From positions 1 through 47,121 of the forward strand of contig CAIYXP010000399.1 in NCBI GenBank assembly GCA_903930145.1: a DNA stretch of 47,121 nt. The letters are read 5' to 3'. Every line of letters begins with the position of its first letter. Position 1 is the first letter of the stretch. The position numbers and the translations under genes are program-made. The DNA comes from an uncultured Methylococcaceae bacterium. GTDB lineage: Bacteria > Pseudomonadota > Gammaproteobacteria > Methylococcales > Methylococcaceae. A model generated the notes under the pieces. That model was not told the DNA's origin. It was given only the letters and a program-made list of their open reading frames with translations, and searched no databases. Below, piece by piece: positions 4,958-12,417 of the stretch.

Positions 4958-6373
4958 TTAGGTGGATTTTTTTAGATTATTTGCAATATAGTCAACCGCC
5001 CGGTCTATCCTCGCCAAGGTTTTGCTTTTCCCTAACAAGGCAAGGGTGACATCAATCGGCGGTGAAACGGTAGTGCCGGATACGGCAACGCGAAGCGGTT
5101 GCGCGATTGCACCCATTTTGACCTCCGCTTCCTTTGCCATTGCTTCGATGGCAGCATGTATCGATTCCTTGTCCCAAGCTTGCAATTCAGCCAAACTGTC
5201 GCGCAAATCTTGCAATAGCAGGGAACTGTCAGCGGTCAGGTTTTTTTGCGCGGCCTTATCGTCATAGGCATCGAATTCCCGGTACAGAAAAGCGCTGCTT
5301 TTCGCCATGTCCACCAAGGTCTTGTTGCGTTCACGTTGGGCTTTGACCACTTCCACCAAGTCCGGCCCTTCGGCAGGGTCAAGCCCTAACTGACCCAAAT
5401 GCCAGCGCAGATGATGGGCGACATGCAACGGGTCGGAATGCATCAAATAATGATGATTCAACCAGATCAATTTCTCTGGGTTGAATGATGAGGCCGATAC
5501 GTTGATGTCTTCCAATTCGAACAATGCAATCATTTCATCCACGGAAAAAATTTCTTGATCCCCATGCGACCAGCTTAAGCGAACTAAATAATTCAACAGG
5601 GCTTCAGGAAGATAGCCCTCATCGCGGTATTGCATCACACTGACCGCGCCGTGGCGTTTGGAGAGTCTTGCCCCGTCCGCTCCCAAGATCATCGGCACAT
5701 GGGCGTAGATCGGCACCTCCGCGCCCAAGGCTTTGAGGATATTCATTTGGCGCGGAGTGTTGTTCAAATGGTCATCACCCCGGACGACATGAGTTACCCG
5801 CATGTCCAAGTCATCGACGACAACGCAAAGGTTATAAGTCGGCGAACCATCGGAACGGGCGATGATCAGGTCATCCAACTCCGAGTTACTGACTACTACA
5901 CGGCCTTTGACTTTATCCTCGATCACCACCTCGCCGTCATCTGGGTTGCGGAAGCGGATGACCGGGGACACGCCAGCGCGGGGCGAGGGGTTGTAGCGGC
6001 AGCGACCATCGTAGCGAGGTTTTTCCTTGTTTTCCATCTGCCGGTTGCGCAGATCGTCCAATTCTTCTTTGCTGCAATAGCAATGGTAGGCATGGCCGGT
6101 GTCCAATAATTGATGGATGATTTCCTTGTAACGGTCGAAACGATGGGTTTGATAGAATGGCCCTTCCTCATAATCCAAGCCCAACCATGTCATGCCTTCC
6201 AAGATGGCATTGACCGATTCTGCCGTGGACCGCTCCAAGTCAGTGTCTTCTATCCTAAGAATAAACGTGCCGCCGTGCTTGCGGGCATAAAGCCAAGAAA
6301 AGAGCGCCGTGCGCGCTCCGCCGATATGTAAATAGCCGGTGGGGCTGGGTGCGAATCGTGTGCGTATGCTCAT
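4958..6373 (-). CDS. gltX: Glutamyl-tRNA synthetase
   Basis: This 471-residue class I aminoacyl-tRNA synthetase charges tRNA-Glu with glutamate. The HIGH-type motif appears near the N-terminus ([20 protein letters not shown]), and the KMSKS-type motif as LSKRH around residue 240. [12 protein letters not shown] and the zinc-region CRYNP are also typical, and the length is normal. It is followed on the same strand by tRNA-Ala, tRNA-Glu and a strong terminator, so enzyme and cognate tRNA are probably co-transcribed. Confidence 0.97.
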
Positions 6374-6602: not shown

Positions 6603-6800
6603 TCATGCCGCTCGTAGCTCATCGCCTATTTCTATAGGTAGCAACCCTGCCTTTTTTGCATCAAGGATGACAATTTCACCAATTCCTTGTTCAGTCATGC
6701 CGATATTGACATTCCAGTTTAGGGAAATATCGCGGACTATATTATCCTTATTAAACTCAATCACAAGAATATCATCTTCGGGGTCATAACTCATTTTCAT
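6603..6800 (-). CDS. DUF2283 family small protein
   Basis: This is a 65-residue protein beginning MKMSYDPEDDILVIEF, the hallmark of DUF2283, with D.KKAGLLPIEI near the end. The start at 6800 is chosen because GGAGGA lies just upstream and the ATG overlaps the stop of the preceding DUF4258 gene (ATGA). DUF2283 genes often follow DUF4258 genes; an antitoxin-like role has been suggested but is not shown here. Confidence 0.8.
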   Translation of the reverse strand: MKMSYDPEDDILVIEFNKDNIVRDISLNWNVNIGMTEQGIGEIVILDAKKAGLLPIEIGDELRAA

Positions 6801-7081: not shown

Positions 7082-7621
7082 ACCTTGTCATTAGGGCAGG
7101 AACGTTTTATGGATTTTGTCGTACCACTTTGTATAGGTTTTGTTGCTTATACTTTGATTGAAGATACAATCGAATCATTCACTCAATGTTTTGCGCATTT
7201 CATTATAAAGCATCCAGCGCAAGCTGTGTTCCGCCATCAACTTGGAACCGCTCATTCGGCGCAATACACAGTGGAGCTGCTCGTGGGTTTGGCTTTGGGG
7301 CATCACAGCAATTCTGATTATGGCAAAAATGTCGTCATTCTGGCATGGATGCCAGAATCCAGTGCCATGGAGGGTAATTTGTCGATTGCATGAGTCTTTG
7401 ATTAAGCCAACGATATAAACCATAGTTTGCCATCCTCGGACGCTGATTCCGTCGTCCATGACGGAATGACGGTTCATTTTCAACGCGTTAGCTCATAATG
7501 AGAATTGCTGGGGACATCCACAAACTCCTTGTTTCAATGAGGTGATAGGAGGAAAATATTGCCGGGTTCGCGTCCGCGCCTGAACGCAAACTCTTTTCTC
7601 ATTAAATTGAAGGAATATCCA
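7082..7621. other. Gene-poor stretch with dispersed palindromes
   Basis: No convincing gene lies between the DUF4258 and PEP-CTERM genes. Two palindromic fragments occur: ATTCTGGCAT/ATGCCAGAAT at 7337-7358 and ATTCCGTC/GACGGAAT at 7446-7467. Both look like dispersed repeat sequence. The left copy of an 18-bp direct repeat (7494-7511) is also here. Confidence 0.6.
7494..7511 (+). repeat. 18-bp direct repeat, left copy
   Basis: CATAATGAGAATTGCTGG occurs here and identically at 8961-8978. The two copies bracket about 1.47 kb that holds the PEP-CTERM gene and the tandem repeats. Confidence 0.7.
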
Positions 7622-8227
7622 ATGAAAGCGTTACCAAATCCATTGACTGCCCTCGTCCTGCTGGCCGGGATGGGCCTTGCCTCCACTGCCGAAGCCGCGC
7701 TGATGTCCAGACTCGGCGGGTTGGCCGTGTACGACACTGACTTAAACATCACATGGCTGGCGAATGCCAATGCCAACGGCACAATGAATTGGACTGCCGC
7801 CAATGCCTGGGCAGCCGGCTTGAATGTCGGCGGCTACACCGGCTGGCGTTTGCCGACCGCGCTGAATGCCGACGGCAGCGGTCCATGCGGTCCCGACTAC
7901 AACTGCATCAACAGCGAACTGGGGCATTTGTTTTACACCGAAGGGGGTTTGACTCAAGGCCAGAGCATTACCAGTTCTGCTGTTTTGTCAAATTTATTTT
8001 CTAATATGCAAACCTTCATTTACTGGTCCGGTACTGAGTACGCGCCCAATCCTAATAGCGCGTGGTACTTCAGTACTATCAATGGCGTCCAGAACTACGG
8101 CAATAAGGACAATAACCGCTATGCGTGGGCCGTGCGCTCTGGCGATGTCCCAGAGCCGGGCGTGATGGGGTTGTTGGGGATTGGCGCATTGGCTTGGGCG
8201 GGTACTAGGCATAAGCGGCGTGGGTGA
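7622..8227 (+). CDS. Exported PEP-CTERM protein with a DUF1566-like domain
   Basis: This 201-residue protein has a signal peptide (about 1-24, ending STAEA), a DUF1566/Lcl-like core (VYDTDLNITWLANAN, WTAANAWAAGLNVGGYTGWRLPT, YWSGTEY, YAWAVRSG), and a C-terminal PEP-CTERM tail: VPEP, a hydrophobic helix, then RHKRR. Such tails are processed by exosortase/EpsH during export to the outer surface or exopolysaccharide. The start at 7622 follows GAAGGA at the right distance. Two cysteines (CGPDYNC) may form a disulfide. No exosortase gene is in the window. Ligand and role are unknown. Confidence 0.88.
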   Translation: MKALPNPLTALVLLAGMGLASTAEAALMSRLGGLAVYDTDLNITWLANANANGTMNWTAANAWAAGLNVGGYTGWRLPTALNADGSGPCGPDYNCINSELGHLFYTEGGLTQGQSITSSAVLSNLFSNMQTFIYWSGTEYAPNPNSAWYFSTINGVQNYGNKDNNRYAWAVRSGDVPEPGVMGLLGIGALAWAGTRHKRRG

Positions 8228-8285: not shown

Positions 8286-8364
8286 CAGCAGTAGGTCGGC
8301 ATCCCCATGCCGACAACAGACTTGTTTATTTCTGTGGCGGCAAAGGCTTGTCGGCCTACTGCTA
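8286..8364. repeat. Nested inverted repeat behind the PEP-CTERM gene
   Basis: TCGGCAT (8296-8302) and ATGCCGA (8307-8313) form a hairpin. The flanking AGCAGTAGG (8287-8295) is repeated inverted near 8356-8364 as CCTACTGCT, giving a longer stem. It resembles dispersed REP-type elements and may also act as a terminator for the gene before it. Confidence 0.55.
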
Positions 8365-8773
8365 GCGGCAACTTTCATCAGGGGTAGAGAGAACCGCAAC
8401 AGTCCTAGCGGCTACCTTCATCAGGGGTAGTGAGAAACGCTACAGTCGCAGCGGACACCTTCATCAGGGGTAGTGAGAAACGCTACAGTCGCAGCGGACA
8501 CCTTCATCAGGGGTAGTGAGAAACGCTAAAGTCGCAGCGGACACCTTCATCAGGGGTGGAGAGAAACGCTACAGTCGCAGCGGACACCTTCATCAGGGGT
8601 AGTTAGAAACGCTACAGTCGCAGCGGACACCTTCATCAGGGGTGGAGAGAACCGCAACAGTCGCAGCGGACACCTTCATCAGGGGTGGAGAGAAACGCTA
8701 CAGTCGCAGCGGACACCTTCATCAGGGGTAGCGAGAAGCGCTACAGTCGCAGCGGACACTTTCATCAGGGGTA
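8364..8773 (+). repeat. 43-bp tandem repeat array, ten copies
   Basis: The word TTCATCAGGGGT recurs exactly every 43 bp at 8374, 8417, 8460, 8503, 8546, 8589, 8632, 8675, 8718 and 8761. Units are contiguous and differ by a few substitutions; the first, second and last are the most divergent. Each unit contains CGCT and AGCG words about 8 bp apart that could form a small stem. As 43 is not a multiple of three, the array is not coding. Confidence 0.9.
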
Positions 8774-8836
8774 GGGAGAAATGTCTCCGGGCAAGGGAGA
8801 ATTGTCTCCGAGCTAGGGAGAACCGTTTCCGGGTCA
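8774..8836 (+). repeat. 21-bp tandem repeat, three copies
   Basis: Three diverged 21-bp units (8774-8794, 8795-8815, 8816-8836) directly follow the 43-bp array. Each starts GGGAGAA; the first two continue to TCTCC and are dyad-symmetric, while the third has TTTCC. Confidence 0.75.
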
Positions 8837-9058
8837 TGGAGAAGTGGAACAAGCGCGGGGTAAGCGTTAGAAATGATTTATCGTTGCGCCTTTGCGTCGT
8901 TGCGTGAGGTTTTCTTTTGGAACGATGACATCACAATGCCTAAGCCATAGTGCTTCAGGCCATAATGAGAATTGCTGGCAAAGGAATCCGATGATTTGCC
9001 AAAACAGCCAAGACGGATTACAGTCTAAGCGTTTTTAGCGTTTAACGAGGCTGTTTCC
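8837..9058. other. Intergenic sequence with dispersed-repeat words
   Basis: No gene is visible. The stretch contains a direct-repeat-like phrase (TTGCGCC.TTTGCGTCGTTGCG, about 8883-8905) of the sort common in bacterial intergenic regions, and the right 18-bp direct repeat at 8961-8978. Confidence 0.5.
8961..8978 (+). repeat. 18-bp direct repeat, right copy
   Basis: An exact copy of the 18-mer at 7494-7511, in the same orientation, about 80 bp upstream of the radical SAM gene. Confidence 0.7.
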
Positions 9059-10147
9059 ATGGATGCCATCATCAATCCTTCCGAGGCTTTTCCGACTCGC
9101 CATTGGCGCAAGCTAGACGACGGGCGAGTCGAATGCCAAATCTGCCCGCGTTTGTGCAAGTTGCACGAAGGCCAGCGGGGCTTATGCTTTGTGCGTGGCA
9201 ATGTGGGCGGTGCGGTGGCCTTGCTGTCGTATGGCCGCTCCAGCGGGTTCTGCATTGATCCAATAGAAAAAAAGCCGCTCAATCATTTCTTGCCGGGTAC
9301 ACCGATATTCTCCTTTGGCACAGCGGGTTGCAACCTTGCTTGTAAGTTCTGCCAGAATTGGGACATCAGCAAATCGCGGGAAATGGACCGCTTGATGGAT
9401 CAAGCATCGCCGGAAGCCATCGCTTTTGCCGCCCAACAGACGGGTTGCCGTAGCGTGGCCTATACCTACAACGACCCGGTGATTTTCCACGAATATGCCA
9501 TTGATACCGCGATAGCCTGTCGGGAAGTCGGTGTTCGGTCGGTGGCGGTTTCCGCCGGCTTCCAGTGCGCCGAACCCCGCGCCGAGTTTTACCAGTACAT
9601 GGATGCGGCGAACATCGATCTGAAAGCCTTCACCGAGGATTTCTACCATCGCTTGTGCGGCGGGCATTTGCAAGCGGTGCTGGAAACTTTGGAATATATC
9701 AAACACGAAACCAACGTATGGCTGGAAATCACTACCTTGCTGATTCCCGGTGAAAATGATTCCGAGGCCGAATTGGAACGCTTGACGCAATGGGTCGTCG
9801 AAAAGCTAGGGCCGGATGTGCCGCTGCATTTCTCCGCCTTCCACCCTGATTGGAAAATGTTGAACACGGTAGCCACCCCGCCGTCGACCCTGATTAAGGC
9901 AAGGCAAATCGCCCTGAAAAACGGCATCCATCATGCCTATGTCGGCAATGTGCATAATAGAGATGCCGCCAGCACTTGGTGTCATCAATGCGGTCATTTG
10001 TTGATAGGTCGGGATTGGTATGAGCTTTCCGAATGGAACTTGACCGACAGCGGAACCTGCCGCCATTGCGGTGCAAGTTGTGCCGGGGTGTTTGATACCC
10101 ATCCGGGGGCTTGGGGGGCGAAGCGTCAAGCCGTCAGGATGGGTTAG
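9059..10147 (+). CDS. AmmeMemoRadiSam-type radical SAM enzyme
   Basis: This 362-residue protein has the radical SAM cluster motif CNLACKFC (C91, C95, C98) in the FGTAGCNLACKFCQNW context typical of the AmmeMemoRadiSam family, which is related to pyruvate-formate-lyase activases. The N-terminus carries CQICPRLCKLHEGQRGLC, and the C-terminus has two CxxC pairs (CHQC and CRHC) that could bind zinc or a second cluster. The family is usually found with Memo-like and AMMECR1 proteins in a widespread but poorly understood system. Neither partner is in this window. The substrate is unknown. Confidence 0.88.
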   Translation: MDAIINPSEAFPTRHWRKLDDGRVECQICPRLCKLHEGQRGLCFVRGNVGGAVALLSYGRSSGFCIDPIEKKPLNHFLPGTPIFSFGTAGCNLACKFCQNWDISKSREMDRLMDQASPEAIAFAAQQTGCRSVAYTYNDPVIFHEYAIDTAIACREVGVRSVAVSAGFQCAEPRAEFYQYMDAANIDLKAFTEDFYHRLCGGHLQAVLETLEYIKHETNVWLEITTLLIPGENDSEAELERLTQWVVEKLGPDVPLHFSAFHPDWKMLNTVATPPSTLIKARQIALKNGIHHAYVGNVHNRDAASTWCHQCGHLLIGRDWYELSEWNLTDSGTCRHCGASCAGVFDTHPGAWGAKRQAVRMG

Positions 10148-11484: not shown

Positions 11485-12417
11485 TCAAATGTTTTCCAAA
11501 GATTCCACCAATACCGAATCCCCAAACATTTCAATGCCCAGACGCTCCCCCACTTGTCTCGCCCGCGCATCAATCATGGGCGATATGACGATAAGCCGGC
11601 TGGCCTTGCGGTCATGGCGTTGCTCATAAAACCGGGCTTTGCGCTCGAAGATGTACATGCCTGCCTTGTCGATGGACGATTTAAGTTCCATCAGAATCAG
11701 GGTTCCGTTCACGATAATCACATCCAGTTCGATCTGATCTGGCCTGCCAAACACCGTGCCTAAGTCATCATATTCCGTGACATTCAGCACCTTGATGTCG
11801 AAGTTCTTTTCCAACACCGAGGCTAAAGCATCACGGAAGGCTTTTTCGGATGACAGCCCCCAACGCGCCCCGAGTGCGCCCACCGTGCGGTCATGTTTGC
11901 GGTTCATTGCCATGATTTCTTCATGCACTCGGTCAAATTCTTCGCGATGGGCCTTTGCCTCTTGTTCAGTTTCCTCTCGGTGTTGTTTCCATTTATGTTC
12001 GGATTCTTCCCGCTGTTCTTTTCGTTGTCGTTCGGATTCTTCGCGCTGTTCTTTTCGTTGTCGTTCGGATTCTTCGCGGTGTTCCTTCCATTGTTTTTCG
12101 GATTCTTCCCTCATGCGACGCAGTTCAGCTTGGTTTTCATACCATTTGCGGTTGTTCTCCTCCCATTTGCGGTTGTCCTCCTCCCATTTGCGGTTGTCCT
12201 CCTCCCATTTGCGATTTTGTTCCTCCCAACGCCGGTTGCTGGTTTCCGTGTCGCGTTCCAGTTTCGCAAACAGCCGGTCAAAACGGTCTTCGGTTTGCTG
12301 TTTCGGGGCGAATTCCTGGCGCGACAGGCGCAGAATCAATTCCTGTATTTCCGGGTCGGTGTGAACCAGTTGGGGAAGTTCTTGTTTGATGAGTTCGCGG
12401 AGTTCGGCGGTGTTCAT
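11485..12417 (-). CDS. Coiled-coil protein with PD-(D/E)XK-like C-terminus (DUF3782-like)
   Basis: This 310-residue protein has three parts. Residues 1-60 are helical. Residues 61-95 are five heptads of the type NRKWEED, followed at 103-168 by six 11-residue repeats of the type REESERQRKEQ, making a long charged coiled coil. Residues 175-310 contain GLSSEKAFRDAL, then D232 in IELDVIIVNG and E244-x-K246 in MELKSS, the acid-ExK pattern of the PD-(D/E)XK nuclease fold. The layout matches DUF3782-type proteins, whose role is unknown. Nuclease activity is inferred only. It could form one unit with the 65-residue and ROK genes upstream on the same strand. Confidence 0.8.
   Translation of the reverse strand: MNTAELRELIKQELPQLVHTDPEIQELILRLSRQEFAPKQQTEDRFDRLFAKLERDTETSNRRWEEQNRKWEEDNRKWEEDNRKWEENNRKWYENQAELRRMREESEKQWKEHREESERQRKEQREESERQRKEQREESEHKWKQHREETEQEAKAHREEFDRVHEEIMAMNRKHDRTVGALGARWGLSSEKAFRDALASVLEKNFDIKVLNVTEYDDLGTVFGRPDQIELDVIIVNGTLILMELKSSIDKAGMYIFERKARFYEQRHDRKASRLIVISPMIDARARQVGERLGIEMFGDSVLVESLENI

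Follow-up and report, generated by a model that had tools for sequence, protein, structure and literature searches.

The described systems closest to the locus studied here are the bacterial intergenic minisatellites or VNTRs (covered in part of PMC2884548) and the short palindromes known as REP or palindromic units, together with their inverted doublets, the REPINs (parts of PMC3116915 and PMC2884548, the former also mentioning clusters of tandem repeats). Our locus shares with the minisatellites of the relevant section of PMC2884548 tandem units longer than 20 bp, an intergenic position and a content that differs between near relatives; unlike those, it belongs to a set of several loci that have in common a grammar of two units and a constant core, with higher-order periods that vary from locus to locus. 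As in the REP and REPIN excerpts of PMC3116915 and PMC2884548, short intergenic palindromes occur at several loci, but here 21- and 22-bp units follow one another as direct head-to-tail repeats rather than as two inverted REPs in one hairpin, and they occupy four loci in 6.0 Mb. Among the matches listed in searches of open-licence literature, no paper on the repeat itself was seen, judging by titles and abstract openings; the text of one methanotroph genome paper (PMC4210602) contains the words 'tandem repeats'.

The window, by which we mean the whole 47,121-nt stretch analyzed (contig C399 of genome G000, a 6.0-Mb assembly in 542 contigs), carries a composite array at 8364–8856 on the plus strand. 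Nine full 43-bp units (8364–8750), each consisting of the 22-bp unit AGCGGACACCTTCATCAGGGGT and the 21-bp unit AGnGAGAAACGCTACAGTCGC, are followed by a final 22-bp half unit (8751–8772), which the plain 21-bp units adjoin directly and in register: three with the core GGAGAANNGTCT and the dyad GGAGA-N4-TCTCC (8773–8835) and a decayed fourth beginning ATGGAGAAG... (8836–8856). Tandem Repeats Finder (TRF) called a period of 43 at 8374–8781 (9.5 copies, 92% matches) and a period of 21 at 8773–8833 (2.9 copies, 82% matches). Self-match of the array reached 92.6% at lag 43 and 78.6% at lag 21, compared with tops of 32% and 48%, respectively, among 200 base shuffles. The original prediction had described ten near-identical 43-bp repeats switching abruptly to three 21-bp dyad repeats, with short complementary words inside the units. 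The period, the switch between 8772 and 8773, the three in-register 21-mers and the complementary words are all found in the window; only the count of 43-mers changes, as the tenth stops at half a unit and the first 21-mer stands in for its other half. Judged by eye, two of the three 21-mers carry the dyad without a mismatch, and the remaining one shows a single G-T.

In position, the plain 21-mers correspond precisely to the second part of a 43-mer, and that second part matches the 21-mer consensus at 11 of 21 positions (p = 0.006, without shifts). No clear likeness was seen between the first part and the consensus (8 of 21, p = 0.13) or between the two parts of the 43-mer (7 of 21, p = 0.32).

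Upstream of the array lies a plus-strand gene for an Lcl_C domain protein with a PEP-CTERM sorting motif (7559–8227; start codon uncertain), and downstream, on the same strand, the gene of an AmmeMemoRadiSam system radical SAM enzyme (9059–10147; TIGR04337), in agreement with the earlier placement between a surface-protein gene and a metabolic gene. The array had also been called noncoding; no ORF of at least 100 aa from a start codon exists between 8227 and 9059. Stops fall in every frame of 8364–8836, but one plus-strand frame runs from stop to stop for 102 codons within the array, or 375 nt including its surroundings. Abutting the array on the left is an imperfect inverted repeat (8287–8363; 29-bp arms, 76% complementary), a part of which, GGTCGGCATCCCCATGCCGAC, recurs exactly, among 278 loci, at the orthologous locus of the sister genome G001, near a second array of that genome (C67) and twice in one locus of G005. 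A promoter scan returned one site (9 of 12), compared with 0.5 expected. The best matches of the radical SAM protein among 80 listed loci come from Methylocaldum and other Methylococcales (74–76% identity); going by this protein, the window genome is Methylococcales-like and probably that of a methane oxidizer.

A search for further arrays of the same unit, suggested by the original prediction, was productive. The 21-mer core led to three more loci in the window genome—C396, C433 and the short C333 with two units only—and a DNA search, which gave matches in two of 61 genomes, recovered from G001 the orthologous array (C104) and two further 43-bp arrays (C67 and C250); one more locus lies in G002 (C510). 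Two building blocks make up this family: the 22-bp one starts with AGCGGACA, the 21-bp one has the core GGAGAANNGTCT, and when the arrays are written out, one phase is common to both. The higher-order period is 43 at C399, C104, C67 and C250, 85 at C433 and 106 at C396, all of them sums of 21- and 22-bp units. At C67, 43-mers are followed by 21-mers as in the window, but with two divergent units in between.

To delimit the family we used R2, a covariance model of two 21-mers. In the window genome it gave 20 matches at E ≤ 1 (150 of 1287 candidates scored), 18 of which lie at the four loci in array sense, unlike the many dispersed copies of REPINs; the other two were weak, one antisense inside the C396 array and one at C171. 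At E ≤ 0.001, R2 matched the four G000 loci, two G001 loci (C104 and C67) and the G002 locus, and no others. This amounts to three of 61 relatives under stricter filters and three of 38 family members, with no match in the other four of the seven genus genomes nor in 31 more family genomes. In a sample of 369 genomes from the class, which did not include the sister genomes, the tandem 43-bp pattern occurred in that of the window and in none of the 368 others. All seven genus genomes have the radical SAM gene; within 1.5 kb on each side of it, R2 recovered the 21-mers of the window and of G001 and found no match in G002–G006, where the 700 bp upstream of the gene differ by eye. Nor was there a match at E ≤ 1 at 21 of the 80 listed radical SAM loci (Methylococcales-type and others). 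So far, then, the family is restricted to the genus, in three of its seven genomes, with none found outside among the genomes searched; draft contigs can break in arrays (C250 starts inside one), and array absence is therefore provisional.

The orthologous arrays of the window and of G001 have 9.5 copies each. On the simplest reading of the unit distances, however, the G001 array has one additional unit at its left end and one at its right end and lacks two in the middle. The flanks are nearly the same: the 21-mers (64 nt) and the next 222 aligned nt are 100% identical with at most two gap positions, and the 136 bp to the left of the array show 97.8% identity. Gain and loss of units inside an array produce just such a pattern of equal length, differing content and near-identical flanks. 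Units turn over between two sister genomes, as observed in one genome pair with equal total copy number. The original prediction had proposed a comparison of copy number and held that constancy, together with no transcription and no other copies, would mark a neutral minisatellite; the total length is indeed constant in the one sister genome having the array, but other copies exist and the unit content differs. Two further differences between these genomes lie outside the repeats considered here. The PEP-CTERM gene (7559–8227) and the matching G001 stretch, whose coordinates are approximate, share about 75% identity over 636 aligned nt with 65 gap positions. Moreover, G001 has 13.6 exact copies of the heptamer CCCCTCG (L125:4009–4103) in the gap between two window-aligning blocks, an array absent from the TRF list for the window.

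We favor, with a probability of roughly 60%, the reading that these arrays form a genus-restricted, multi-locus family of intergenic minisatellites with short palindromes, in which two short units share one phase; they would change by slippage or recombination and might be bound by a protein. In the window, a 22 + 21 pair would have been amplified as a 43-bp higher-order unit, in register before the plain 21-mers; growth, shrinkage and homogenization of arrays would follow from slippage during replication or from unequal recombination among the units. Head-to-tail units within the range of about 10–100 bp, high identity among them and a unit content that varies between close relatives (G000 versus G001, one pair) are what a minisatellite displays. 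Against plain drift, the core GGAGAANNGTCT is too constant, and the 43-mers of different loci share GCGGACANYTTCATCA while their other half differs; in addition, turnover was seen in one genome pair, and total copy number is equal there. If neutral, the family would serve as a genus-specific marker and as a clean example of how higher-order repeats of 43, 85 and 106 bp arise from one 21/22-bp phase.

How constant the core is can be read from 41 units of six loci, in which ten columns (GGAGAA plus GTCT) required 8 parsimony changes versus 74 in the other eleven, the two central columns of the 21-mer alone accounting for 13 and 10. With 46 rows (40 distinct units plus a duplicate and five units that are decayed or at an edge) the figures were 19 core versus 96 other changes. 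When changes were scattered evenly and the ten lowest columns taken as a null, none of 20,000 draws reached the observed core value; the caveats are that the tree comes from the same 21 columns, that units recombine and that the core was chosen once the data had been seen. With these caveats, a constant core in a variable surround is what an array of DNA-binding sites presents, and it hints at recognition by something; fixation before amplification could explain part of the constancy. Unit distances are nearly equal within and between arrays (6.00 versus 6.28).

The arrays might accordingly be clustered DNA-binding sites, with a putative regulator or nucleoid protein seated on the GGAGAANNGTCT dyad, on GCGGACANYTTCATCA or on both along one face of the helix, a reading that we regard as possible but rather doubtful. 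It would account for core columns that are nearly invariant between strongly variable central and flanking ones, for the dyad symmetry of the 21-mers and for the GCGGACANYTTCATCA common to the 43-bp arrays of three loci with a differing other half. Spacing would suit it as well, 21 bp being about two helix turns and 43 bp about four, but the 22-bp units break exact helical phasing. The symmetry, too, is incomplete at the DNA level: in 13 of 41 units the right arm reads TCTTT beside an unchanged GGAGA left arm. Moreover, no array was found in four of the seven genus genomes, so there is no conserved regulon, and the constancy itself is subject to the reservations about tree, recombination and post-hoc core given above. 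Single GCGGACANYTTCATCA sites outside the arrays amount, across the seven genomes, to one exact site and 32 with one mismatch, with none for the reversed pattern; 26 of these 33 were examined, and all 25 distinct surroundings lie in open frames of at least 483 nt rather than in intergenic DNA. Given this position in open frames, we put the excess of isolated sites down to codon use.

A fuller version of the idea, in which an undescribed DNA-binding protein of the genus would recognize two types of site, GCGGACANYTTCATCA and GGAGAANNGTCT, in fixed alternation, and array length would tune local chromosome structure or the expression of neighboring exported-protein genes, seems to us unlikely. 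Should the constant core prove to be a recognized site, it would point to an unknown methanotroph DNA-binding system with array length as a tunable trait. Given how much more constant the core is than the rest of the unit, a protein may bind at regular spacing, as originally suggested.

Less probable still is a role for the transcribed array, its hairpins acting in RNA as 3′-UTR stabilizers, as a terminator-like buffer or as a protein sponge. The regular RNA hairpins that the original prediction considered possible were not supported: on neither strand is the fold of the 477-nt array in the window better than that of its dinucleotide shuffles (z = −0.89 and −1.40), and Rfam gave no match at gathering score there, E ≤ 10 yielding only matches far below gathering. 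The C396 array, richer in 21-mers, outdoes its shuffles in folding (z = −5.05 and −4.18), but many near-identical palindromes give such folding by themselves. Across the 40 distinct 21-mers, the five dyad pairs are formed in 97.0% of cells versus 96.4% after shuffling (85 of 500 shuffles as high), and the covariation score of the dyad, 0.215 versus 0.198, does not exceed that of shuffles (67 of 500 as high); a 42-column alignment showed no covariation either. The dyad does outscore versions slid by 1–3 columns (29–72.5% paired), as expected for a structure read from the same sequences. On the GGAGAA-sense strand, all five pairs are kept in 35 of 41 units if G-U is allowed and in 20 of 41 if it is not; the changes from TCTCC to TCTTT retain G-U pairing on this strand, which we hold to be weak support, and one unit carries the double change AAAGA/TCTTT. 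Three terminator-like sites were seen where 0.6 would be expected; two of the three lie within 43-bp units, on the minus strand. Against an RNA role also speaks the G002 array, which is on the strand opposite its 5′ neighbor, a 907-aa ORF that we take to be secA from reading its sequence alone. We infer that the array has no dedicated RNA role. A CsrA-type sponge was also considered, on the familiar features of CsrA sites: GGA is kept in the 21-mers but sits in the dyad stem, and many 43-mers have no GGA in their second part.

That the arrays derive from a mobile element with repeated transposase end sites, for example of IS21 type, either as its relics or as its amplified ends, is very improbable: some IS21 ends have two similar repeats of about 20–25 bp in a layout comparable by eye, and the window genome contains istB-like fragments, but six plasmid istB genes (six right and five left ends) gave isolated matches only (one GCGGAGA, two GGAGAA and one TTCTCC) and no paired repeats, the loci of the best three of seven genomic istB-family matches lack unit sites and are located elsewhere, no IstA or IstB occurs among the scanned neighboring proteins, and no array match was found in plasmids (window and C396 queries), phages (C396 query) or viral contigs (two exact patterns). 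Ends of an IS21 element are thus not supported, the units not being at the ends of istA–istB.

Several arrays have a gene in common among their neighbors. Gene X (P0003), which encodes 205 aa without a Pfam or NCBIfam match, is intact immediately downstream of the arrays at C396 and C250, and only a 3′ remnant of it is left beside those at C433 and C510 (copies and remnants at L129:6270–6887, minus strand; L127:342–959, plus strand; L128, about 6629–6745; and L186, about 2671–2790). The remnants give the impression that the part of the gene between the array and its surviving 3′ end has dropped out. As a general array partner gene X was discarded, the 21-mer model being present in only three loci (L208, L220 and L211) of 30 gene-X matches scanned; the C250 locus (L209) has 43-mers only.

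A second, unrelated kind of tandem repeat, with units of 31, 39 and 32 bp and an inverted repeat like CAAGGCTTGCCTTG, occurs at L128:5509–5808 and 5822–5916 and at L259:10687–10841. Its 31-bp form is repeated 9.7 times at a distance of about 1 kb from the C433 array and contains the inverted repeat CAAGGC-TT-GCCTTG; by eye, single sequences like CAAGGCTTGCCTTG were also seen close to the arrays at C67 and C333. A 375-kb part of the genome (contigs of known length, a non-random choice) held no noncoding array with a period of at least 10 and at least five copies outside long open frames, with one exception, an 18-bp call of 5.4 copies that overlaps the palindromic array at L259 (32 bp, 4.8 copies). 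Tandem repeats occur inside genes as well. About 1.4 kb from the C433 array, L128:2595–5348 encodes a 917-aa protein with a NACHT N-terminal domain (NNH3), a NACHT-like part and pentapeptide repeats, the coding end of whose gene contains a 15-bp tandem repeat. In the window, 33-bp and 21-bp tandem repeats lie at 11997–12238 inside the reading frame of a DUF3782/PDDEXK nuclease-like protein (11485–12417, minus strand).
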